DNA of 64,000 nucleotides from Solirubrobacter pauli (GTDB lineage: Bacteria; Actinomycetota; Thermoleophilia; Solirubrobacterales; Solirubrobacteraceae). How positions within the stretch are numbered: the stretch's first letter is position 1; the number at the start of each line of letters is the position of its first letter. Where the stretch lies: positions 124,001 to 188,000 of the forward strand of contig NZ_RBIL01000001.1 in assembly GCF_003633755.1 (NCBI RefSeq). Direction: 5' to 3'. Made by a program: the position numbers and the translations under genes. Below the pieces are notes generated by a model that searched no databases, had not been told where the DNA came from, and worked only from the letters and a program-made list of their open reading frames with translations. Of the stretch, positions 638 to 63,829 are shown in pieces.

Positions 638-2719
638 TCATGGGTTCGTCGTCGACAGCGTGAAGGTCACCGTCTTCGCGTAGGTGCCGGTGCGCAGCGG
701 CTCCTTCTCCCCGATCGCCTGCTTGAGGCCGAGCGTGACCTCGTCGCGGGAGACGGGCGCCGCGTACGTGCGCAGCGTCGTCGGCGTGGACGTGACGGGC
801 GCGTACGTGCCGTCGCCCGCGCGGACCTGCAGCGGCTGGGCGAGCGTGTAGGAGCCGTTGACGAGCCGGCCCGGCGCGGTGGTCGCGGTGTCGGCCACGG
901 ACAGCGCCGCGTCACCCGCGGTGGAGGTGACGGTCGCGGTCGTGGTGGCGAGGTAGTCCTGCGCCACGCCGGCGACGAACGGCGCGAACACGGCCGGCAG
1001 GCCGAGCGTCAGGCCGAGCTGCGGCGGCACGGTGCCGGAGACCACGCCCGGCGTGGTCGCCTCGCGGTACGGCGCGGCGATCCGGCCCGGCGAGCCGGTC
1101 TCGCCCGCCACCGTCCACGCGCCGTTGACACCGGCCACGCTGAGCTTGACGCCGTCGACGTTCTCGAACGTGAACCCGGTCACGGCGGGGCCGAAGCTGA
1201 AGCCGCTCACGCGCGTGCCCGAGGCGTCGAACACGTTGACGGCGTCGCCGTCCGTCGACAGGCCGATGCCCGAGCCGCTGTAGAAGCCGATCTTGATCTC
1301 CGGGCCGAGCTGCCAGGAGGCGCGCAGCGCCGCCGCCGTGGCGGCCGTGCCCTCGACGAACAGGACCGACTCACCCGGCGCGATCGACGTGACGCCGTTC
1401 AGCGCGAGCGCCGAGGCGAACGCGTTGGAGCTGTCGTCGACCTTCCAGCCGCTGACGTCCACGGCCGTCGTACCGCGGTTGGTCACCTCGAACCAGTCGG
1501 CGCGGTACGGGCTGTTGCCCGAGCTCCACGGCGACGCCTCGGTCACCGCGATCGTGGACACGCTCACCGTCAGCGTCGCGCTCGTCGCGTCCGGCGTCGC
1601 GCCCACGGAGACGTCGTCGACGGTCACCGCCACGCTGATGCTCACGCGGTCCAGCGGGGCGCCGGCCTTCAGGTACAGGGCGGTGCCGTCGAGCTCGAAG
1701 AACGCCGCGTCGGCGCCGGCCACCGCCAGCGTGTTGGTGCCCTGGCCGTCGTCGGAGACGGACACGTCGGCGATCTTCACGCGCGTCGCGGTGCTCGACA
1801 CCGACGTCACGGCGTTGGTCAGCGCCACGCCGGTCGGCGCGGCGTTCGGGCCGCTCGCGGGCGCGTACACCCACAGCTGCGGATGGTCGACGTCGCCGCC
1901 GCCGTTCTCGTTGGTGACGTAGATGCGGCCGGCGCGGTCCATGGTCACGCCCTCGTGCCCCTCGTCAGCGCTGCCGACCGTCAACGAGCTCGTGACCGTG
2001 CCCGCGCGCGTGACGTTCAGCAGCTTCCCGCTCTCCTGGCTGAGCAGGAGCAGCGAGCCGTCGGCCTGCGCGAACACGTCCGCGACGTCCGAGACGCCCA
2101 GCGCCGTCGTGTCGAACAGGCTGGGGACGTCGACGGCCTCGGGGGAGCCCACGGTGGCCGTCCCCGCGGCCCAGTCCACCGTCGTCTGGAACACGCCGAT
2201 CGGGTTGAGCTCCTTGACGACGACGTAGCCGCCGGAGAACGGATCGCTCGAGAGGCCCTCGAACCCCTCGTTGCCGATCGTCGTGCCGAGCTTGACGCCC
2301 TGCGTCTGCGCGCGCGTGAGCGTCGTGCCCGCCGCGTACGTGAAGCGCACGAGCCGGCGCTCGCGCTCCTCGGCGAGCACGAACTGGCCACCGCCCACGT
2401 ACGTCAGCCCCTCGACGTCGTCGAAGGCGCCCGGGGCCAGCGTCATCGAGTCGATCAGCTGGCCGGTCTTGCTCACCTGCACGATCGAGGTGCTCTCGTC
2501 GCCGACGACGAACAGCGAGTCCGTGTCCGGGTCGTAGGTGACGGCCGACACCTCCTTGGCGAGCAGGCTGCCGGCCGGAGGGGTGGTGCGCGTGGGCTCG
2601 GGCAGGTCGTAGCGCCCGATGCGCGTGTAGGTGGAGAGGTCAACCGCCGCGATCGCGTTCGCGGGAGCGGCCAGCGCGGCCGCCCCGACGACAGCGGCGA
2701 GCACACGCCGAATGGTCAT
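638..2719 (-). CDS. Secreted SdiA-regulated-like / lamin-tail-domain surface protein
   Basis: 693 aa from an ATG followed by a signal peptide (MTIRRVLAAVVGAAALAAPA). Residues about 28-260 read like the SdiA-regulated (YjiK-type) beta-propeller, with repeated blocks such as VEGLTYVGGGQFVLAEER. A cadherin-like stretch follows. At about 386-500 there is a lamin-tail domain (ADWFEVTNRGTTAVDVSGW), a module used in extracellular bacterial proteins, often beside nucleases. The last ~125 residues form a domain that recurs at the C-terminus of the M14 peptidase at 60965-63829. No catalytic residues are recognised. The protein is probably exported and wall- or surface-associated. Nothing shows what it binds. 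Confidence 0.75.
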   Translation of the reverse strand: MTIRRVLAAVVGAAALAAPANAIAAVDLSTYTRIGRYDLPEPTRTTPPAGSLLAKEVSAVTYDPDTDSLFVVGDESTSIVQVSKTGQLIDSMTLAPGAFDDVEGLTYVGGGQFVLAEERERRLVRFTYAAGTTLTRAQTQGVKLGTTIGNEGFEGLSSDPFSGGYVVVKELNPIGVFQTTVDWAAGTATVGSPEAVDVPSLFDTTALGVSDVADVFAQADGSLLLLSQESGKLLNVTRAGTVTSSLTVGSADEGHEGVTMDRAGRIYVTNENGGGDVDHPQLWVYAPASGPNAAPTGVALTNAVTSVSSTATRVKIADVSVSDDGQGTNTLAVAGADAAFFELDGTALYLKAGAPLDRVSISVAVTVDDVSVGATPDATSATLTVSVSTIAVTEASPWSSGNSPYRADWFEVTNRGTTAVDVSGWKVDDSSNAFASALALNGVTSIAPGESVLFVEGTAATAAALRASWQLGPEIKIGFYSGSGIGLSTDGDAVNVFDASGTRVSGFSFGPAVTGFTFENVDGVKLSVAGVNGAWTVAGETGSPGRIAAPYREATTPGVVSGTVPPQLGLTLGLPAVFAPFVAGVAQDYLATTTATVTSTAGDAALSVADTATTAPGRLVNGSYTLAQPLQVRAGDGTYAPVTSTPTTLRTYAAPVSRDEVTLGLKQAIGEKEPLRTGTYAKTVTFTLSTTNP

Positions 2720-3299: not shown

Positions 3300-3328
3300 G
3301 CCCACCCCCCTTGCAGGGCCGGGTGGGC
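3300..3328 (+). terminator. Hairpin after the small secreted protein gene
   Basis: GCCCACCC at 3300-3307 pairs with GGGTGGGC at 3321-3328, 42 bases past the stop of the 2832-3257 gene, and is followed by TTCAGTTCACT. It probably separates that gene from the downstream peptidase gene. Confidence 0.45.
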
Positions 3329-3349
3329 TTCAGTTCACTCTCACGCGGG

Positions 3350-3369
3350 CCTCCGTTGAGGGACGGAGG
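3350..3369 (+). promoter_or_regulatory. Leader hairpin of the M14 peptidase gene
   Basis: CCTCCGT, a six-base loop and ACGGAGG form a perfect 7-bp stem ending 25 bases before the ATG at 3395. The ribosome-binding site itself (GGAGGG, 3383-3388) lies outside the stem. The stem could stabilise the leader. An alternative pairing of its CCTCC arm with the Shine-Dalgarno GGAGG would occlude the site. Confidence 0.35.
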
Positions 3370-3394
3370 AAAACCGAGCAGTGGAGGGCTGTAC

Positions 3395-6300
3395 ATGCGA
3401 CGACACGGTCGATGGACCGTGCCTGTCCTGGCGGCTGCGCTGGCGCTGGGGGCGCCGGGCATCGCACAGGCAGATGCGCTGAAGATGTACCGCGTCACCG
3501 TGGATGCCGATGGCGCTGGCGCGCTCGGCGACCTCGGTGTCGACATGGGCCACACCGGCTACAAGGCCAACGGCCCCGCCGGGCAGACGATCTTCGTCGA
3601 CCTCGAAGACGGGCAGGCGAAGGTCGCCCGCTCCAAGGGTCTTGCGCTCGAAGAGGTCACGCCCGGCCCGCACGTATCCGAGGCGCAGATCGAGCAGCGG
3701 ATCGCGGCCGCCGCGGCCAAGAGCCGCAGCGCCGCCCCCGCGGCCGACAAGCCCGAGACGGGCGGCGACTCGCCCAACCCGTTCTATGACGTCTACCGCT
3801 CGTACGCCGAGCCGGGCGGCATCAAGGACGAGATGAAGTCGATCGCGTTCGCGAACCCGGACCTCGTCAAGTACGTGGTCATCGGCAAGTCCGGCCAGGG
3901 CCAGGACATCGTCGCCCTCAAGGTGACGAAGAACGCGCGCAACGTCGCCGACGGCGAGCGCCCGGCGATGCTGTTCTCCGCCGTCAACCATGCGCGTGAG
4001 TGGATCGCGGCCGAGGTCGGCCGCCGCATGCCGTCGTGGTGGATCGAGCACGCCGACGACCCGGAGATCTCCGACCTGCTCGGCCGCGCCGAGCTGTGGT
4101 TCCTGCCGATCCAGAACCCGGACGGCTACGAGTACACGTTCACCTGCGGCACCGGCTTCCGCGCCGCCGCCAACGAGATGTGCGGCGCGACGCTGGTGAC
4201 CGACCCGGCCGACCCGCTGCGCGGCACGTACGTCTACAAGAACGCCGCCGGCACGATCCTCGCGCCGAACGCGGCGCAGCCGGACACGACCAAGCGCAAG
4301 CCGACCAACCGCCTGTGGCGCAAGACCCTGCGCGACAACGACGGCAACGGCACGTTCGGCGACGGCCAGGACGGCGTCGACCCGAACCGCAACTACTCGT
4401 CGAACTGGAACCTGGACGAGGAGGGCGCGTCGAACACGTTCTCCAGCGGCACGTACCGCGGTCCGTTCCCGCACTCGGAGCCCGAGGACCTCGCGTACGA
4501 CCGCCTCCTGCGCAAGATCACGCCTGAAGCGGTCATCAACTACCACTCGGCCGCGCAGCTGCTGCTGTACGCGTTCGGCTACATCACGGACGTCTCCTCC
4601 GACGACGACCCGTGGTTCAAGGCGATCACCGGCACCGACGGCGACGCCGCCGTGGACCCGTACATCTCGCAGCGCAGCTCCGACCTGTACATCACCAACG
4701 GCGAGACGACCGACCACGCGTACAACAAGTACGGGTCGATGTCCTGGACGCCCGAGCTCGACGAGTGCGAGACGGCGGCCGGCGGCACGTTCTGCTCCGG
4801 CGGCTCGGGCTTCACGTTCCCGGACGACGAGGGCAAGGTCGAGGCCGTCTTCGAGAAGAACCTCGACTTCGCGCGCAACGTCGCGGCCACCACGCTCGAC
4901 CGTGACCGGCCCGACCGCCCGCGCAACGCCACCGACGACGAGACGCAGTATCAGGTGAAGGGCTCGCCGGACATCGAGCCGAACCGCTTCAACGTCTCCT
5001 ACGGCGCCGAGCAGACGCTCGAGGCGACGTCCCGCAAGATCCTCGGCCCGGTCGACTTCGTCGTCCAGGTGCCCACCGGCCCGGGCGGTGCGTCCCGCAC
5101 GCTCACGCTGCGCGGCCAGTCCTGGAAGGGCGGCGAGCGCTTCGGCGACCTGCGCGGCAAGTACTACCAGCGTGTCCGCGCGACGATCCCGGCGGACTTC
5201 GTCCAGCCCGGCGTCGCCCAGACCCCGCGCCCGCTCGTCGCGGGTGACGTGGTCAACGTCCGCGTGATCGCGGGCTCCCAGCAGCAGCGGTTCTCCTACC
5301 GCGTGCAGTCCACGCGCCCGGCCAACAGCGCGGGCAAGCGCGTGCTGGTCGTCGCGGCCGAGGACTACACGGGCCTCTCGCCCAACAAGGAGGCGTACGC
5401 CACGGCGCCGCGCTACCTCGACGAGCACGTCGCGGCCCTCACGGCCGCCGGCTACAGCGTCGAGACGTTCGACGTCGACGCGCCGCCGGTCGGCGCCGAC
5501 GGCAAGGCCAACAAGCAGCTGTCGGACCTCGGCGTCCTGAACCACTTCGACGCCGTCCTGTACTACACGGGTGACGACCTCCTGCCGCAGCAGGTGGGCG
5601 AGGGCGTCGACACCACGAACTACCGTCGCGGCAACACCATCGGCGCGAACGGCACGTTCAGCCTCACCGGCTCGACGCACCTGCCGACGTACGGCGTGCG
5701 CAACGCGCAGATGCTGCGCAACTACATGAACGACGGCGGCAAGGTCATGTTCACCGGCCGCAACGGCTGGGTCCAGCAGACCAGCACGAGCACGTCGCTC
5801 ACCACCTACTCCGGCTACACCTGGTGGCAGGAGCCCGTGTACGGCTTCGACTACCCGGCCGACCAGGCCGGCGACGACGACCGCCCGCACACGGCGTTCT
5901 TCCGCGAGCTCGACATCTCCAACGACTGGGGCCAGTACTGGCTCGGCGTCGCGGGTCGTGTCGGCGGCGTGGGCACGACGACGTTCAACGGCGTCACGGT
6001 CACGCCCGCCGCGGGCAGCTTCCTCGCGGGCATGAACCCGTTCGCGGTCGACAGCTGGATCGGGTCGGGCGACACGCTCGAGCCGACGCAGAACGCGACG
6101 ACCGGCATGCCGGAGCCGCGCCTGAAGTCCCCGACCCGCCTGCGCAACTTCAGCAGCGTGTCGGCGCAGCGCCCGTTCCGCCAGGAGCGGATCGAGGCCG
6201 ACTACACGGGCCAGACGACCGCCAACGGCGGCGCGATCCTGTCCACGCGTGACTCGGTCTCCATCGGCTTCGGCCTCGAGCAGGTCGACGCCACGACCCG

Positions 6301-7408
6301 CACCGAGATCGTCCGCCGTGCCCTCGGCTACCTGCTGCCGGCGACCGCCGACACCACGGCGCCGACGGTGAGCTGGCTGCGCCCGGCCGAGAACGCCGAG
6401 GTCAGCGTCGCCGACCCGGTCGAGATCGAGGTCGAGGCCGTCGACGAGCGCGGCGACCTCAAGGAGGTCCGCCTGAGCGTCGACGGGACGCCGGTCCGCA
6501 CGAAGGTGTCGTTCCCGTTCCAGCTCCGCTGGCAGCCGTCCGCGTCCGACGTCGGCACGACCAAGACCCTCTCGGTCGCCGTCGAGGACAAGGCCGGCAA
6601 CGTCACGACCTCGTCGCGTGCGATCAAGGTCGTCGCGGGCTCCGGCATCGCCGAGGCCCCGCTGCCCACCGGCGTCACCACCGTCACCGGCTCGCCGGTC
6701 GTCGGCCAGACGCTCACCTGCGTGCCGTCGGGCTTCACCGGCGCCGGCACGCTCACCTACGCGTGGCTGCGTGACGGCAAGGCCATCTCGGGCCAGACCG
6801 CCGCGACCTACACGGCCACGTCGGCCGACGTGGGCGAGGAGATCGCCTGCAAGGTCACGTCGACCAACGCCGCGGGCGACGCCGACTCCACCTCGGACGG
6901 CAAGACCGTGACGATGAACGGCGGCCCCGCCGGCCCGACCGGCCCGACGGGTCCGCAGGGCCCGACCGGCCCGACCGGCCCGCAGGGTCCGAGCGGTCCC
7001 ACGGGTCCGACCGGCCCCGGTGGCCCGACGGGTCCGAGCGGCCCGACGGGCGCCACCGGCCCCACGGGTCCGACCGGCCCGGCCGGCCCCACGGGTCCCG
7101 CGGGCCCGCAGGGTCCCGCCGGTCCCGCGCCGACGGTGAAGATCACGTGCACGACGAACTCGGCGGGCAACTCCGTCACGTGCACGATCTCCACGGACAA
7201 CGCGGTCAACGCCTCCACCAAGGCGTCGGCTCGCGTCGTCGGCTCGAAGGCGAAGTCCAAGACCGTGTCCGGCAAGGGCAAGGTCAAGGTCTCGCTCAAG
7301 GGCAAGGTCAAGAAGAACGCCAAGGTCGAGGTCACGTACGCCGTGGGCAAGGCCAAGGGCAAGACGGTCGTGCCGCTGGGCAAGGCCGTGAAGGTCTCGA
7401 CGAAGTAG
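3395..7408 (+). CDS. Secreted M14 zinc carboxypeptidase with Ig-like domains and collagen-like stalk
   Basis: 1337 aa. The ATG at 3395 was chosen because GGAGGG lies seven bases upstream and a signal peptide ([20 protein letters not shown]) follows directly. The M14 domain shows the zinc-binding pair NHAREW (H199, E202), the NPDG and DPNRN substrate-binding motifs, a third zinc ligand in INYHSA (about H384) and a candidate catalytic glutamate in TPELDE (about 454). A large middle region probably carries an accessory domain. Residues about 985-1175 form two Ig-like domains. Residues 1176-1245 are uninterrupted Gly-Pro-X triplets, and the end is lysine-rich. The predicted role is extracellular release of C-terminal residues from peptides by an enzyme held off the cell on a rigid stalk. 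The peptidase call is strong; surface attachment is inferred. Confidence 0.9.
6922..7131 (+). repeat. Collagen-like Gly-Pro-X coding repeat
   Basis: About 23 consecutive in-frame triplets of the types GPT, GPQ, GPS and GPA, interrupted once by GPGGPT and once by GAT. At the DNA level this is a degenerate 9-bp repeat of the ggcccgacg type. Such tracts form collagen-like triple helices in bacterial surface proteins, so the peptidase carrying it may be trimeric. Confidence 0.85.
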
Positions 7409-7658: not shown

Positions 7659-8471
7659 TCACGGCAGCGCGCAGACCGACGACGAGCCGCCCGACGCGAC
7701 GGTGCGCCCCGGCGACGTGAACCGCTTCTCCCGCCGCTCGACCCGGCCGCCGCGACGCCATTCGAACTCGGCGAGCCCGCGGAACGTGCGGCCTTTCACG
7801 CCCGTGAACTGGAACGTGTAGCCGCCTTCGAACGAGCGGTGCGCGGCACCGAGCGTCATCCACGGCGACGTGCCGTTCGGGACGTCCAGCCAGCGGCCGG
7901 ACGGGTCGGCGTACTGCAGCCGGAACCGAGCGGCCACCGTCTGCCGGCGCGACCCGCCGCCCGGGCTCGCCGCGCGGATGCCGACGCGCGCGGCGGTGCA
8001 GACGTTCATCGTCGCCCACGGACGCTGGGCGCGGGTCGCCGAGCAGCGCACGCCGCGGTTGTCGGCCACGCTCAGGCAGCGCTGCGCACCGCCCTGCAGC
8101 CGGCCGCGCACCACCCGGTGCTCGCTCGTGCGACCGAAGTTGCGGGCGAGCGCGCGCACCTGCAGGCGCGCGCGGGCCTTGAGCCGCAGCTTGGGGCGGA
8201 ACACGTGCCGCGTGGCGGTGGCGACGGCGTCCACCGAGGTCTGCCCGAGGCAGCCCTGGCAGGTGAAGCCGACGCGTTCGCCGGCCGCGACGCCGTCGAG
8301 CGTGATCTGGGTGACGACCACGCCGCCGGCCTCGCCCGCCTGGCTGGCGAAGCTGACGGTGAAGGGCGCCACGGCGTCGGGCAGCGCGTCGGGCGCGACC
8401 GCCGTGCGGGCGTCGCCGACGACGAGCGCGAACGCCGCGACCAGGAGGATCAGGAGCCGAAGGAAGCGCAC
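7659..8471 (-). CDS. Secreted protein of unknown function
   Basis: 270 aa from a GTG at 8471 (VRFLRLLILLVAAFALVVGDA), chosen because a hydrophobic export signal follows it and an AGGTGGG-like ribosome site precedes it. The mature part is rich in Arg and has six cysteines, two of them in a CQGC motif. It contains two beta-type regions, the second beginning near FRLQYADPSGRWLDVPNGTS. The stretch RFRLQYADPSGRW and later GYTFQFTGV resembles Ig/fibronectin-like modules of secreted actinobacterial proteins. It lies 43 bp downstream of the ROK regulator on the same strand, so the two may be cotranscribed. No family was recognised. Confidence 0.65.
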   Translation of the reverse strand: MRFLRLLILLVAAFALVVGDARTAVAPDALPDAVAPFTVSFASQAGEAGGVVVTQITLDGVAAGERVGFTCQGCLGQTSVDAVATATRHVFRPKLRLKARARLQVRALARNFGRTSEHRVVRGRLQGGAQRCLSVADNRGVRCSATRAQRPWATMNVCTAARVGIRAASPGGGSRRQTVAARFRLQYADPSGRWLDVPNGTSPWMTLGAAHRSFEGGYTFQFTGVKGRTFRGLAEFEWRRGGRVERREKRFTSPGRTVASGGSSSVCALP

Positions 8472-8514
8472 TGCCCACCTCAACCCGCGACCGGCCGCGA
8501 CGTTGCGGCGTTGC

Positions 8515-9690
8515 TCACGCGGTCGCCAGCGGCTCCACCTCGGCGAGCGCGTACGGAGCCTGCGCGAGCTGGATCGCCGCGGCACCGAGCACGGCCGCGC
8601 GGTCGCCCAGCTCACCCGGGACGACCTTGACGACGGCGGCCGCCGGCGCGATCGCCTGACGGGCGATCGCCTTGCGGATCGGCTCCAGCAACACGTCGCC
8701 GGCCGCGGCGAGCTCGCCGCCCACGACGACCCGCTCGGGGTTGAGCAGGTTGACGGTCGTGGCGATCGCCTCGCCGACGGCCTCCCCCGCGTCGGCCACC
8801 GCGCGGCAGGCGGCGCGCTGGCCGCTCGCGACCAGCGCGAACAGCTGCTCGAGCGTGACCGGCCCGCCGGCGCTGCGCTCGAGCTGGAGGCGGATCGCGC
8901 GCGAGCTGGCGACGGTCTCCAGGCAGCCGCGGCCACCGCAGCGGCAGATCAGGCCGTCGCGCGCGACGCGCACGTGCCCGAGCTCTCCCGCGACGCCGCA
9001 GGCACCGCGGAACGGCCGCTCGTCGAGGATCAGACCGAGGCCGACGCACGACGAGAGCCGCACGACGGCGAGCTGGCGCGCGCCGCGGCCGGCGCCGAAC
9101 AGCGCCTCGCCGATCGCGCACGCGTTGGCGTCATTGTCGATCCTGACGGGCATGCCGAGGCGGCGCTCGAGCGCCTCGCGCAGGCCGAGCTCGCGCCAGC
9201 GCGGCAGCACGCCGGCGGCGTGGATGGTGCCGCGGTCGGCGTCCACGGGCGCGGCGACGCCGACGCCCGCGCCGAGCACCTTCGCCGGATCCACGGCGGC
9301 TTCGGCGAGCGCGATCCGGGTCACCTCGGCGGCGGACTCGAGCATCGCGTCGACTTCGTCGTCCGGGTCGACCGCGGTCTCGGCGCCGGCCACGATCCGG
9401 CCGCCGAGGTCGCAGACCGCGGCGCGGATGTGGTCGCCCGCGAGGTCGACGCCGACCGCGTAGGCGGCGCTCGGCGCGAGCGAGACGTGCAGCGGCGGGC
9501 GCCCGATCGTGCGGCGTCGCTCGAGCCCTTCGTCCGTCTGGCGCTGGACGATCCCCGCCAGCTCGAGCTCTTGCAGCAGGGTCGTCACGGTGGCACGCGA
9601 CAGCCCGACCCGTTCACTCAGGTCCGCCCGGCTCACCCCCGGTTGATGCAGCAGTGCCTGCAGGATCTTCAGCTTGGTGCCGTCCCGCAC
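8515..9690 (-). CDS. ROK-family transcriptional regulator (NagC/XylR type)
   Basis: 391 aa, GTG start preceded by GAGGAG. The N-terminus is a winged helix (LLHQPGVSRADLSERVGLSR with the recognition helix RATVTTLLQELELAG). The rest is the ROK sugar-kinase-like fold with the zinc-binding CRCGGRGCLE motif and a DNDANA phosphate-binding region. Having both the DNA-binding domain and the ROK motif makes this a repressor that releases DNA when it binds a sugar or amino sugar, not a plain kinase. Its ligand cannot be told from sequence. It sits between the RTX wall hydrolase gene (40 bp upstream) and a secreted protein, so wall-sugar sensing is a reasonable but unproven guess. Confidence 0.9.
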   Translation of the reverse strand: MRDGTKLKILQALLHQPGVSRADLSERVGLSRATVTTLLQELELAGIVQRQTDEGLERRRTIGRPPLHVSLAPSAAYAVGVDLAGDHIRAAVCDLGGRIVAGAETAVDPDDEVDAMLESAAEVTRIALAEAAVDPAKVLGAGVGVAAPVDADRGTIHAAGVLPRWRELGLREALERRLGMPVRIDNDANACAIGEALFGAGRGARQLAVVRLSSCVGLGLILDERPFRGACGVAGELGHVRVARDGLICRCGGRGCLETVASSRAIRLQLERSAGGPVTLEQLFALVASGQRAACRAVADAGEAVGEAIATTVNLLNPERVVVGGELAAAGDVLLEPIRKAIARQAIAPAAAVVKVVPGELGDRAAVLGAAAIQLAQAPYALAEVEPLATA

Positions 9691-9730
9691 GGGTCTCCTC
9701 TCTCGATGTTGCCCTCCCCAACGCGTATGT

Positions 9731-12700
9731 CTACCGATACTTCTTCGCGGCTGCCTGCACCTTCTTCACGTACCAGTCAGCGTGGTTGTACGCGAACAGG
9801 GCCTTGTAGTACGACTTCGGCGCGCCGGAGGCCCGCAGGTAGCGGGCGCTGGAGTAGATCGCGTCGACCGCGTTGTAGGGGTCGGCCTTCCCGTCGCCGC
9901 TCGCGTCCATCCCCCACTGCTTCCAGGTGGCGGGCATGAACTGGGTCCAGCCGATCGCGCCCGCGGAGGACGGACCCATGTTGCACCCGTGCGCCGACTC
10001 GACCTCGGTGATGCCCGCGAGGATCTGCCACTTGATGCCGAACGCTCGGCCCGCGCGCTGCCAGATCGGCTTGAGGATCTGCGCGCCGCTGCACGGCGTG
10101 GGCGACCGGAGGCCGGAGCGGTGCGTCGGCTTGCGGCCCAACCGGGCGTTGCTGCGGCTCGCGAGCGACGCCAGCGAGGCCACGCGGCCGAGCTTCGGCG
10201 TGCTCAGGTTCAGCCGCCAGACGGCGGCCGCGGGCTGCCCGCGCTTGGACGGCGTGTGCCGCCAGCTCAGGTGCAGGTGGTTGCCGCGCCCGTGGTTGGC
10301 GTCGCCGTTGTAGCCGACCCAGCGGAAGGGCGCGCGCGGACGGTTCTGCCGGGGCTCGGCCCACTTGGCGAGACGGTCGATGTCGTTCCAGGAGCCGCCC
10401 GGGCCGGGGACGATGTCGACCGCGAGGCCGATCGGGTGCTCACCCGCGGCCGCGTGGCCCTCCATCGCGTAGCCGTCGGTGATGCGGACCTTGTACTTGG
10501 CCACGAGGTAGCGGATGTCGGCCAGCAGGCGGCTGTCGATCCGCTCGCCCGGCATGCCGGGGATGCCGACGAAGCGTCCCTTGCTCGTGACCTTCGCGAC
10601 GCCCTTGACGGTCGCCGTGGCCGTGACGGTCTCGACCGCCACCGGCGCCGCTTCGCCCTTGGTCTTGACCTTCGTCGTGTGGGTCTTCTCGCAGCCGGCC
10701 GGCTTGTCGGCCTTGTCGGCGTACGCCTCGTCCTTGCCCGTGCCGCAGCGCAGGATCTCGGCGAGCCCGTCACGCGCGTCGAGGCGGTCGTTGCCGTTGC
10801 CGCCGTCGACGGCGTCGACGCCGTTGTTGCCCCACAGCCGGTCCTTGCCCTCGCCGCCGGAGATCGTGTCGTTGCCGTCCCCGCCGCGGATGGTGTCGTC
10901 GCCGCCTTCCCCGTACAGCTGCTCGGGGGCGTTGCCGCCCGTGAGCTTGTCGTTGCCCGCGCCGCCGATCACGGACTCGGTCAGGACCAGGTCGCCCTCG
11001 CCGAGCTCGCCGTCGTCGGGCACGTCGTCAAGCGTGATCGTCAGCGGGTTCGTCCGCGCGGCGTAGTCCGCGGTGTCGCGGCCGTTGTCGCCCTGCAGCT
11101 TGTCGGCGCCGGCGCCGCCGACCAGCACGTCGTCGTCGTTGCCACCGCTGAGCGTGTCGTTGCCGCCGTCCCCGTTGAGGCGGTCGGGACCGTTGTCGCC
11201 GCGGACGTCGTCGTTGCCCTCGCCGCCGCTGACCTGATCGGCGCCGTCGCCGCCATACGCGCGATCGTCGCCGGCGCCGGCGTCGAGGCGGTCGTCACCC
11301 TGGTCGCCCTGGAGCGTGTCGTTGCCCGCGCCGCCCGTGAGCGTGTCGTTGCCGACGCTGCCCTTGAGCGAGTCGTTGCCCGCGCCCGCGGTGAGCGTGT
11401 CGTCCCCGTTGCCACCGTCGAGCTTGTTCGCGCCGTTGCCGCCGTCCAGGATGTCGTTGCCGTCGTTGCCCGTGAGGCTGTCGTCGCCGTCGCCACCCGT
11501 GAGCGCGTCGTGGCCGTTGCCGCCTTCGAGCTTGTCGTCGCCCGTCGCGCCGTCGAGGGCATCGTTCCCGTCGCCGCCGTACAGGGCGTCGGCTCCGTCC
11601 CCGGCCGCGAGCGTGTCGTCCCCGTCGCCGCCGGTGAGCGTGTCGTTGTCGTTGCCGCCGTCGAGGGCGTCGTTGCCCGTGCCGCCGTCGAGCTCGTCGC
11701 GGCCGGCGCCCGTCTCGACGCGGTCGTTGCCGTCCTCGCCGCGGCCCTTGTCGTTGCCGTCGTCGAGCGTGAGCGTGTCGTCGCCGGAGCCGCCCCACGC
11801 CTGGTCGTCGCCCGCGCCGCCGCGCAGCGCGTCCTGGCCGTCGCCGCCCTTGAGCGTGTCGTTGGCCGCGCCGCCGTCGAGCGTGTCGTCGCCGGTGCCG
11901 CCCTCGAGCGTGTCGGCGCCGTCGCCGCCCGCGAGCTGGTCGTCGCCCGCGTCGCCGTAGGCCTTGTCGGTGCCGGACCCCGCGGTGAGGAGGTCGTGGC
12001 CGTCGCCGCCGGTCAGGGTGTCGTTGCCGTCGCCGGCGTCGAGCGTGTCGTCGCCGGCCGCGCCGGTCAGCGTGTCGTCGCCGGTTCCGCCGGTGAGCGC
12101 GTCGTCGCCGATGGTGCCCGTCAGGCGGTCGTTGCCGCCGTTGCCGGCGAGGCTCGTGCCGGTCAGCGTGTCGCCCGCGCTGCCGCCGAGGATGCGCTCG
12201 ACGCTCGGGCGCACGTCGTCGCGCTCGTTGCTCGCGCCGTCGTCATTGACGCCGTCGGCGTCCGCGGTGATCGCGACCGTGCGGGACGCGTAGTCGGCCG
12301 TGTCGAAGCCCGCGCCGCCCTCGAGGACGTCCGCGCCGCCCGCGCCGTCGAGCACGTCGTCGCCGGGACCGCCGTCGAGCGTGTTCGCACCGCTGTTGCC
12401 GGTGAGGTCGTCGTCGTCCGAGCCGCCGATCAGCGCCTCGACCGTGGTGAACGTGTCGCCTTCCACGCTGCCGGCGGCGAGGTCGGCGACGACCGGCGCG
12501 GTGCGTGCGGAGAAGTCGACGCGGTCGCTGCCGTTGCCGCCCGTGTAGGCGTCGTTGCCCGCCCCCGCGAGGAACACGTCGTCCCCGCTGCCGCCGCTGA
12601 CCGTGTCGCGGCCCGGCCCGTCGCTGACCGTGGCGGGCGTGGTGCCGGCGAGCGTGAAGGTGTCGTCGCCGTCGCCGAGGTCGACCTCGGCGCGCGTGAT

Positions 12701-60964: not shown

Positions 60965-63829
60965 GTGCCCCAAGTCATGTCCTCGCGGCTGAAGGCCGCG
61001 GCCTCGGTCGCCGCCCTGGCGCTGCTCGCGACGCCGGTCGCCGCATCGGCCGGCTCGACCGCCGGCCCGTCGGTCGCGTCCACCGCGGCGACGGCCGCGC
61101 AGGCCGCCGCGGACGTCAAGGGCTGGCCGCAGCAGAACGTGCTGCCGGTCTGGCCGGACAACCCGAACGACGCGTCGATCCCGATCGGCGTCACCCCCTA
61201 CGACGAGATCGCGCCCAAGCTCAACGCTCTTCAGGCGCAGAGCAACCGGGTCTCGGTCCGAGTAGCGGGCAAGTCCTCCGGTGGTCGTGACCTGTACGTC
61301 GCGACGGTCACGTGGCCGGAGACCGACGCCGAGGCCGCGCAGCAGGAGGCCTGGAAGGACAAGATCGAGGACGATCCGGTCGCCGCCCGCACCGACGCGG
61401 CGCTGCTCGCGGGCTACAAGACCCCGCTGTTCGTCAACGGCAACATCCACGGCAACGAGTGGGAGGGCACCGACGCCATCCTCCGCGTGATCGACAAGTG
61501 GGCCAAGAGCACCGATTCCGCCGTCGAGACGCTGCTCAAGCGCAACCGCATCACCTTCAACGTCACGTCCAACCCGGACGGCCGCGTGCTCGGCACGCGC
61601 CCGAACGAGGCCGGCTACGACCTCAACCGCGACCTGACGATCGTCTCGCAGCCCGAGTCGCGCCTGATCCGCGACCTGACGGTGCAGACGCAGTCGCTGT
61701 TCCTGCTCGACCTGCACGGCTACGTCACGCCGACGCTGCTGTGGCCGAGCACGCCGCCGCACAACCCGAACAACGACTACGACCTCTACATCAAGCACGG
61801 CCTGCCGGCCGCGATCCAGATGGAGCAGGGCCTCAAGGACCTCGGCTACCCCGAGACGCAGAGCGCGCGGATCCCGTTCCGTGACGACGAGGTGGGCGTG
61901 TGGGACGACTACCCGCCGATCTACGTCCCGTCGTTCGCGCTCTACCAGGGCACGATCCCGTACACGATCGAGGCGCCGCTGAACCCGCGCGGCACGAACC
62001 TCAGCCTCGAGGAGCGCAAGCGCCGCTCGGGGATCAACACCGACGTGCACGAGGTCGCCATCAACAAGGCGCTCGCGTACATGCAGACCAACCGCGACCA
62101 GCTGATCTTCGACCAGGCCGAGCTGTTCCGTCGCGGCTGGGCGGGCGAGCCGACGCGTGACATCCCGGACAGCTTCGTCCCGGGCTGGGGTCCGGAGGAC
62201 AACTACAAGACGCAGTTCCCGCGTGCGTACGTGATCCCGGCGGGCGCCGGCCAGCGCTCCGCCGCGGCCGCCAAGCGCCTCGTGGACCTGATCGTCGAGA
62301 GCAACGGCCGCGTCACCCAGGCCAAGGCGGCGTTCACCGCGGGCGGCAAGAGCTACGCCGCCGGTTCGTACGTGATCGACATGCACCAGCCGCTGCGCGG
62401 CCTCGTCAACACGCTGCTCGAGCCGGGCCTGGACATCACGGACCGCGTCGACGACCTCTACGCCGGCCCGGCCGGCTGGAGCCACGGCCTGACGTGGGGC
62501 GCGACCGTCGACACGCTCCAGAGCGAGTTCCCGGGCGTCGCCACCGAGCGCGTCTTCGCGGGCGCCGTCACGTCGGTCGTCCCGACCGGCAACACCGACC
62601 TCGTCCTCGATCCGCGTGACGCGGAGGACGTGCTCGCGATCAACGCGCTGCTCGGCCAGGGCATCAAGCTCACGCGCCTCGCCGATGGCTCCGTGCTGAT
62701 CCCGGCGAGCGCTCGCGCCGCCGCGCTCACCGAGGCGCAGACGCGCGGCCTCACGCTCACCACCGCCCCGGCGTCGTGGAGCGGCTCGACGATCGCCGAC
62801 AAGGTGGTCGTGGCCTACGTCGGCGGCTCCGAGGTGCGCGACGTCCTCAAGGCCATCGGCTTCGAGGCCAAGGCCGTCACGGCCACGACGCTCACCACCG
62901 CGCTCACCGCGGACGTCGACGTGCTCGTCGTCGGCGGCACGCTGAACCCGGCCACGCTCAACGCCGCGAACAAGGCCGTCTATGACGCGTTCCTCGCGCG
63001 TGGCGGCGGCATCGTCGGCCTCGGCACCGCCGGCTCGGCGCACACCACCAACGCCGGCCTGCTGACGGCCACCGGCACCGCCGGCAACAGCCTCACCTCC
63101 GGTGTGGCGAACGTCGTCAACCACGGCGGTCCGATCGTCAACAACGCCCAGCCGCACGCGTGGATCTTCCAGCCCGCGTGGTACACGAACCTCGGCCCGA
63201 ACGCCGTCGTCGAGCAGTCGTTCGCGACTGAGCCGCTGCTCGCCGGCTGGTGGCCGAAGACCGGCACCCAGGGCCGTCCGGCGGCCGCCGGCAAGGCCAC
63301 GGTCGTCCGTGCCGAGAGCGCCGCCGGCAACGGCGTCGTCCTGATCGGCACGAGCGTCGTCACCCGCCTGCACGCCAAGGGCCTGAACGCGACGTTCGGC
63401 CGCGCGATCCTGTTCGCGGCCGCGGCCAAGAACACGGCCGCGTCGACGTCCACCGGCGGCACCGTCGGCGGCTCGGTCCCGGCGACGCTGTCCCTCACGC
63501 TGGGCTCGCCGGCCTCGTTCGGCACGTTCAAGCCGGGCGTGCCCGCCGAGTACACGGCGACCACCGACGCGACGGTCATCTCCACCGCGGGCGACGCGAC
63601 GCTGTCGGTGACCGACCCGTCCACGACGAACACCGGCTTCCTCGTCAACGGCGCGTTCAAGCTCGCGCAGCCGCTGCAGGGCCTGGGTGTCGTCAAGACG
63701 TGGACCGGCCCGACGTCCAACGAGAAGGTGCCCGTCACCTTCAAGCAGGTCATCGGCGAGAAGGACCCGCTCCGCACGGGCTCCTACAGCAAGACGCTGA
63801 CGTTCACGCTCAGCACCACCACCCCGTAG
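60965..63829 (+). CDS. Secreted M14 zinc carboxypeptidase with shared C-terminal domain
   Basis: 954 aa from GTG 60965, which has GGAGGT 10 bases upstream; an ATG four codons on (60977) is the alternative. A signal peptide follows (AAASVAALALLATPVAASA). M14 motifs: GNIHGNEWEG (H152, E155), SNPDGRVLG, YDLNRDL (Arg for substrate carboxylate) and the third zinc ligand in LLDLHGYVTP (about H241). The middle of the protein carries a second region, and the last ~115 residues form the domain also found at the C-terminus of the 638-2719 protein (IGEKDPLRTG, TFTLSTTTP). Likely an exported metallopeptidase displayed on the surface. Confidence 0.9.
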   Translation: MPQVMSSRLKAAASVAALALLATPVAASAGSTAGPSVASTAATAAQAAADVKGWPQQNVLPVWPDNPNDASIPIGVTPYDEIAPKLNALQAQSNRVSVRVAGKSSGGRDLYVATVTWPETDAEAAQQEAWKDKIEDDPVAARTDAALLAGYKTPLFVNGNIHGNEWEGTDAILRVIDKWAKSTDSAVETLLKRNRITFNVTSNPDGRVLGTRPNEAGYDLNRDLTIVSQPESRLIRDLTVQTQSLFLLDLHGYVTPTLLWPSTPPHNPNNDYDLYIKHGLPAAIQMEQGLKDLGYPETQSARIPFRDDEVGVWDDYPPIYVPSFALYQGTIPYTIEAPLNPRGTNLSLEERKRRSGINTDVHEVAINKALAYMQTNRDQLIFDQAELFRRGWAGEPTRDIPDSFVPGWGPEDNYKTQFPRAYVIPAGAGQRSAAAAKRLVDLIVESNGRVTQAKAAFTAGGKSYAAGSYVIDMHQPLRGLVNTLLEPGLDITDRVDDLYAGPAGWSHGLTWGATVDTLQSEFPGVATERVFAGAVTSVVPTGNTDLVLDPRDAEDVLAINALLGQGIKLTRLADGSVLIPASARAAALTEAQTRGLTLTTAPASWSGSTIADKVVVAYVGGSEVRDVLKAIGFEAKAVTATTLTTALTADVDVLVVGGTLNPATLNAANKAVYDAFLARGGGIVGLGTAGSAHTTNAGLLTATGTAGNSLTSGVANVVNHGGPIVNNAQPHAWIFQPAWYTNLGPNAVVEQSFATEPLLAGWWPKTGTQGRPAAAGKATVVRAESAAGNGVVLIGTSVVTRLHAKGLNATFGRAILFAAAAKNTAASTSTGGTVGGSVPATLSLTLGSPASFGTFKPGVPAEYTATTDATVISTAGDATLSVTDPSTTNTGFLVNGAFKLAQPLQGLGVVKTWTGPTSNEKVPVTFKQVIGEKDPLRTGSYSKTLTFTLSTTTP

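Follow-up and report, generated by a model that had tools for sequence, protein, structure and literature searches.

WxL domains always lie at the C-terminus of the proteins that carry them, contain two Trp-x-Leu motifs and bind peptidoglycan noncovalently; they are encoded together with WxLIP, one strand of which is predicted to enter the WxL domain (PMC9772566, PMC10599100, PMC5817068), and their distal motif reads YXXX(L/I/V)TWXLXXXP (PMC5817068). Here, we analysed a stretch of 64,000 nucleotides from Solirubrobacter pauli (contig NZ_RBIL01000001.1, positions 124,001 to 188,000, hereafter the window), in which two genes for otherwise unrelated secreted proteins (gene 1 and gene 2) end in the same C-terminal module. 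We read this module, with a probability of about 0.68, as a derived, tryptophan-poor WxL-type domain that was amplified into a general C-terminal tag for surface retention, presumably through binding to the cell wall or to a WxLIP-like partner protein. Solirubrobacter is a soil genus, common yet poorly studied. Neither a published clue to the destination of its exoenzymes nor an earlier description of a sorting domain from Solirubrobacter or Thermoleophilia was found in the open-access papers searched.

The coordinates that the first-pass annotation gave for the two proteins are correct, with gene 1 on the minus strand. The features are as follows:

638..2719, minus strand: gene 1, a secreted protein of 693 amino acids (signal peptide, SdiA-regulated beta-propeller, lamin-tail domain, C-terminal module)
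1907..2563, minus strand: SdiA-regulated beta-propeller of gene 1, N-terminal (Pfam PF06977, 8e-41)
1196..1558, minus strand: lamin-tail domain of gene 1 (Pfam PF00932, 2.8e-14)
641..1027, minus strand: module copy 1, 129 amino acids, terminating in ...YAKTVTFTLSTTNP-stop (supported by the BLASTP match to copy 2, by genome-wide profile matches and by an AlphaFold2 model with pLDDT 97)
60965..63829, plus strand: gene 2, a secreted M14 zinc carboxypeptidase of 954 amino acids with a signal peptide and the C-terminal module
61223..61633, plus strand: M14 carboxypeptidase domain match of gene 2 (PF00246, 8.5e-18)
63479..63826, plus strand: module copy 2, 116 amino acids, terminating in ...YSKTLTFTLSTTTP-stop

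A single significant BLASTP match links the two proteins, between residues 555–682 of gene 1 and 829–943 of gene 2 (128 residues, 52% identity, E 2e-28), while the remaining matches are noise (E > 1). The module copies themselves align over 129 and 116 residues with about 60% identity, and 20 of the last 25 residues are identical, so that the common tail on two unrelated proteins described in the first-pass annotation is borne out. Gene 2 also has a weak ThuA-like stretch, which is under the Pfam cut-off.

Searched with a profile built from these two tails alone, the window's own 7.1-Mb genome returned 109 matches, corresponding to 108 copies (one shortened copy was matched in two pieces), located in unrelated genes and differing in sequence by tens of percent. 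A large DNA repeat or a mobile element seems less probable as their origin on these grounds. Because the same module recurs about 108 times, the similarity between the tails of genes 1 and 2 is not a matter of chance. Each of six other Solirubrobacter genomes holds at least 69–70 copies, one of them at least 150, and all the named matches in other genomes belong to Solirubrobacter. The rest of the family has 0–3 copies per genome; at the class level, a fuller profile has a match in 11 of 299 genomes, and within a phylum sample of 396 the only matches are in the window's genome and in three others from its family. Neither Pfam nor NCBIfam has a model for the module. It is neither confined to two genes nor part of a known Pfam enzyme domain, either of which the first-pass annotation had named as a refutation. 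The proposal made there, a domain used across the lineage, is supported, the lineage being essentially one genus, Solirubrobacter. As to the arrangement of copies, four module-bearing genes of similar length (973–1093 amino acids) stand within about 12 kb at G000:C1:3593913-3605201, and similar arrays occur in genomes G003, G004 and G005. A shortened module at G000:C1:43953-44129 (L078) keeps only profile positions 1–40 and 109–129 in one open frame, probably as a result of internal deletion or decay.

All 108 copies run exactly to the stop codon. Within the profile limits, they measure 111–140 amino acids, except for a shortened copy of 59, and the last residue is a proline in 113 of 115 aligned modules, including those of relatives. 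A signal peptide is called in 105 of the 108 module genes by a simple, crude rule; the three exceptions are two genes truncated by contig ends and one with an internally deleted module. The permissive rule was also positive in 62% of neighbouring genes, and we replaced it by a stricter rule with blind choice of the start, which calls signal peptides in 81 of the 108 genes compared with 43 of 316 neighbouring genes (Fisher 7e-32). Cytoplasmic carriers, which would have spoken against a sorting role, are not what is seen. In copy number, C-terminal position and taxonomic restriction, the module resembles sorting signals that are recognised and removed, with covalent attachment of the protein by a dedicated transpeptidase (sortase-, exosortase- or T9SS-like), and one sortase gene is present in the genome. 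We nevertheless hold such a cleaved signal to be very unlikely: the module is followed neither by a transmembrane helix nor by a basic tail, the copies finish in a folded module with no LPXTG motif, as suggested in the first-pass annotation, and the linked loci that were read showed no gene for a protease or transpeptidase. The module is instead modelled by AlphaFold2, as a single-chain prediction like all the models used here, as a compact, confidently folded sandwich of seven strands (predicted local distance difference test, pLDDT, 97). A sortase explanation was set aside because both LPXTG and tail are lacking.

In relatives with few copies, the gene beside the module gene encodes a secreted two-sandwich protein of about 255 amino acids, of which each Solirubrobacter genome has 3–4 family members. 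Among 61 relatives, this partner family is found in all 11 module-bearing genomes (module E ≤ 1e-3; Fisher 2e-10), and also in G009 and G043, two relatives outside these 11, in which a divergent short module gene adjoins the partner gene. At the class level, it occurs in eight of the 11 module genomes compared with 13 of 299 overall (Fisher 1e-10). Of 12 copies examined in genomes other than Solirubrobacter, 11 are located at a distance of 21–3784 bp from a partner gene (21–111 bp for the closest), the exception being the third copy of G285. When compared with Firmicutes WxLIP by HHalign, the partner profile reaches a probability of 92.7 (E 4e-7) over 223 columns running through both domains, and the best of 60 column shuffles scores 18.5 against 55.6. 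The best matches of its AlphaFold2 model in the PDB are WxLIP of Enterococcus faecium in complex with WxL (9i25_C, Z 15.6, 214 residues) and a second WxLIP entry (9i1y_A, Z 15.2, 218 residues). Judged from these profiles and models, the partner is a remote homologue of WxLIP. Searching PDB sequences with the profiles of the module and its partner gave no match, and of the PDB comparisons only that of folds reached WxLIP; nothing exceeded the cut-off against Pfam PF06030 and PF11797, the latter alone appearing at E 0.06–0.37.

Among solved structures, chaperone-usher pilins come closest to the fold of the module (CsuA/B, 7zl4_B, Z 9.2; best Foldseek E 1.2e-3), and the partner also resembles PapD/FimC chaperones. 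At face value, these similarities would suit a pilin-like subunit forming a donor-strand polymer, with the partner as its PapD-like chaperone and the enzymes shown on fibres or matrix filaments. This explanation appears unlikely to us. The usher family PF00577 is absent from the genome in a search that does find the E. coli control, which argues against a classical pilus; WxLIP surpasses every chaperone as a match for the partner, by fold (PapD-type chaperones rank behind, at Z 14.3 or less) and by alignment length; and the fusion of most copies to large enzymes would be odd for a fibre subunit.

Resemblance to WxL is also visible in the module itself. The ending Y...[LIV]TF.L....P, i.e., the distal WxL motif with tryptophan replaced by phenylalanine and one extra residue, is present in 78 of the 108 modules and in none of 397 control C-termini. 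Across the 115 aligned modules, the position of the first motif holds alanine in 99 and tryptophan in one, while that of the second holds phenylalanine in 93 and tryptophan in none. The short copies of G012, G043 and G025 read S/L-W-T-L where Solirubrobacter has A-T-L, the short copy of G009 has both W-T-L and T-W-D-L, and each of these four copies adjoins a WxLIP-like gene whose product has, by inspection, a C-terminal transmembrane helix. The fuller module profile matches those of G012 (E 2e-12), G043 (5e-11) and G025 (3e-20, G025 itself being part of the profile), and a wider one finds that of G009 at E 2e-6, above all of about 400 control proteins.

Several observations weigh against a WxL-type domain. 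At thresholds as loose as E 10, the genome yields no Pfam WxL match, whereas the same search finds the Lactococcus WxL and an Enterococcus WxL used as positive control scores 7.6e-39 against PF13731. HHalign comparison of the module with Firmicutes WxL is weak, with a local probability of about 3% and a global one of only 5.9%, even if the latter alignment is collinear and scores 18.0, above the best of 100 shuffles (9.8); in hidden Markov model searches, Firmicutes WxL scores fall among those of controls. The module is also shorter (111–140 versus 160–190 amino acids) and lacks both tryptophans, while Solirubrobacter has only 3–4 partner genes, in forms of about 255 amino acids without the C-terminal transmembrane helix, for more than 100 modules. 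Finally, the WxL chain 9i25_A is not among the 50 fold matches listed for the module (chaperone-usher pilins, Z ≤ 9.2), an absence that is no evidence against a WxL fold. Direct homology to Firmicutes WxL is suggestive, and in view of the weak direct profile comparison, we describe the module as working like WxL and as probably a derived relative, instead of filing it under PF13731. Together, the divergent resemblance to WxL and the location beside a matching partner gene argue that exported enzymes are probably retained noncovalently on the surface.

The carriers are diverse: one set of 53 proteins covers 63 Pfam families and another of 46 covers 65, among them ThuA (15), CBM6 (14), M14 (12), GSDH (11), S15 (7), amidase (5) and M1 (4), besides GDPD, phosphatases and glycosidases. 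That many of them are degradative and bear CBM6, PKD or concanavalin-like domains would agree with a substrate- or matrix-binding domain, similar to a carbohydrate-binding module (CBM), taking the enzymes to soil polymers and not to the cell's own surface. Such a role is decidedly unlikely in our opinion, as the module is always at the extreme C-terminus, whereas CBMs occur at either end or inside, as the carriers (peptidases, phosphatases, amidases, GSDH) have no common substrate, as the module tracks the WxLIP-like partner across genomes, and as some copies consist only of a signal peptide and the module.

If the module is indeed a WxL-type tag, its carriers would be exported by Sec, in line with their signal peptides, and the C-terminal immunoglobulin-like (Ig-like), pilin-type sandwich would, according to the structure model, fold by itself outside the membrane, where it would be captured noncovalently by the cell wall and/or by the WxLIP-like partner, perhaps through strand donation as predicted for WxL and WxLIP. 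Relatives have one or a few linked copies and Solirubrobacter more than 100 dispersed fusions, from which we infer that the linked arrangement is ancestral: a one-operon system, with a short module copy beside a WxLIP-like gene, would have become in Solirubrobacter a general tag on more than 100 secreted enzymes and binding proteins kept cell-associated. Keeping exoenzymes at the cell surface would then be the purpose of the tag and the benefit to the cell. Compared with the first-pass annotation, which had suggested wall anchoring or sorting, a WxL/WxLIP-like mechanism is the likely addition, anchoring itself staying presumptive. A more ambitious version, to which we give slightly less than even odds, is a genus-wide code for noncovalent surface display, in which a tryptophan-less WxL-type tag on more than 100 enzymes would be held by a few WxLIP-like scaffolds; if true, the genus would possess an actinobacterial equivalent of a cellulosome-like platform of surface enzymes. 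A tag on more than 100 proteins amounts to a list of the candidate surface proteome of Solirubrobacter, and the module supplies a family that is missing from annotation. Moreover, WxL/WxLIP-type surface systems would be extended from gut Firmicutes to deep-branching Actinomycetota, and the natural series of copies with two, one or no tryptophans would offer a handle on the role of these residues in WxL.

Other observations concern the loci themselves. At G000:C2:413-415 kb (L137:3536-5733), a module gene (C2:413950-414336) that ranks among the shortest and most divergent of Solirubrobacter is flanked by two different WxLIP-like genes. The WxLIP-like proteins of G009 (L239:5193-6677) and G012 (L244:8991-10652) have an HHH_3 (helix-hairpin-helix) domain after the transmembrane helix (1.5e-17 and 9e-20, respectively), as in ComEA, which is an unexpected fusion. 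In several genera, a conserved secreted protein of about 450–520 amino acids, starting near ‘W.CHGPxGQ’ and without Pfam family, is encoded next to the module and WxLIP-like genes or between them, and is a candidate third component of the system. In genomes more distant within the class, small Ig-like proteins, often containing tryptophan, adjoin DUF916-like proteins with a transmembrane helix, so that WxL/WxLIP-like pairs without a Pfam model may be widespread in the class. The corresponding positions are:

L137:1933-3501, L166:6399-7808, L167:6233-7597 and 10328-11689, L162 about 8466-10952: conserved third secreted protein
L245:6871-8987, L246:3985-5725, L247:5886-8445, L248:4715-6346: pairs of small Ig-like and DUF916-like proteins

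In the window, gene 1 adjoins a second M14 carboxypeptidase-like gene (3311-7408, plus strand) that is module-free and whose product, as read from the translation, ends in Ig-like and collagen-like G-P-T/Q repeats.

Compared with described systems, archaic chaperone-usher pilins (CsuA/B) and PapD-like chaperones have the same general Ig-like folds as the module and its partner, but the genome has no usher, there is no fibre operon and the module is fused to enzymes. The partner is closer to WxLIP (DUF916-DUF3324; PF06030-PF11797; 9i25, 9i1y): both are secreted and share the order of their two Ig-like domains, and the best PDB matches and HHalign point to the PGBD and HBD fold of WxLIP. It differs by being under Pfam cut-offs, by the Firmicutes motif NQIDKxxxYFDLK not being seen, and by having no C-terminal transmembrane helix in Solirubrobacter, whereas more distant relatives have one. 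As for WxL, it is, like the module, a C-terminal domain of exported proteins (wall-targeting in its case) that comes in short forms (signal peptide and domain) and long, fused forms, is encoded with a WxLIP or WxLIP-like gene, and has a distal motif Y...(L/V)T-aromatic-x-L...P. The module is set apart by the lack of a Pfam match, by the alanine and phenylalanine that replace the two tryptophans (kept only in relatives' copies), by its fusion to enzymes in more than 100 copies per genome, and by its occurrence in Actinomycetota, when WxL belongs to Lactobacillales and Bacillales.
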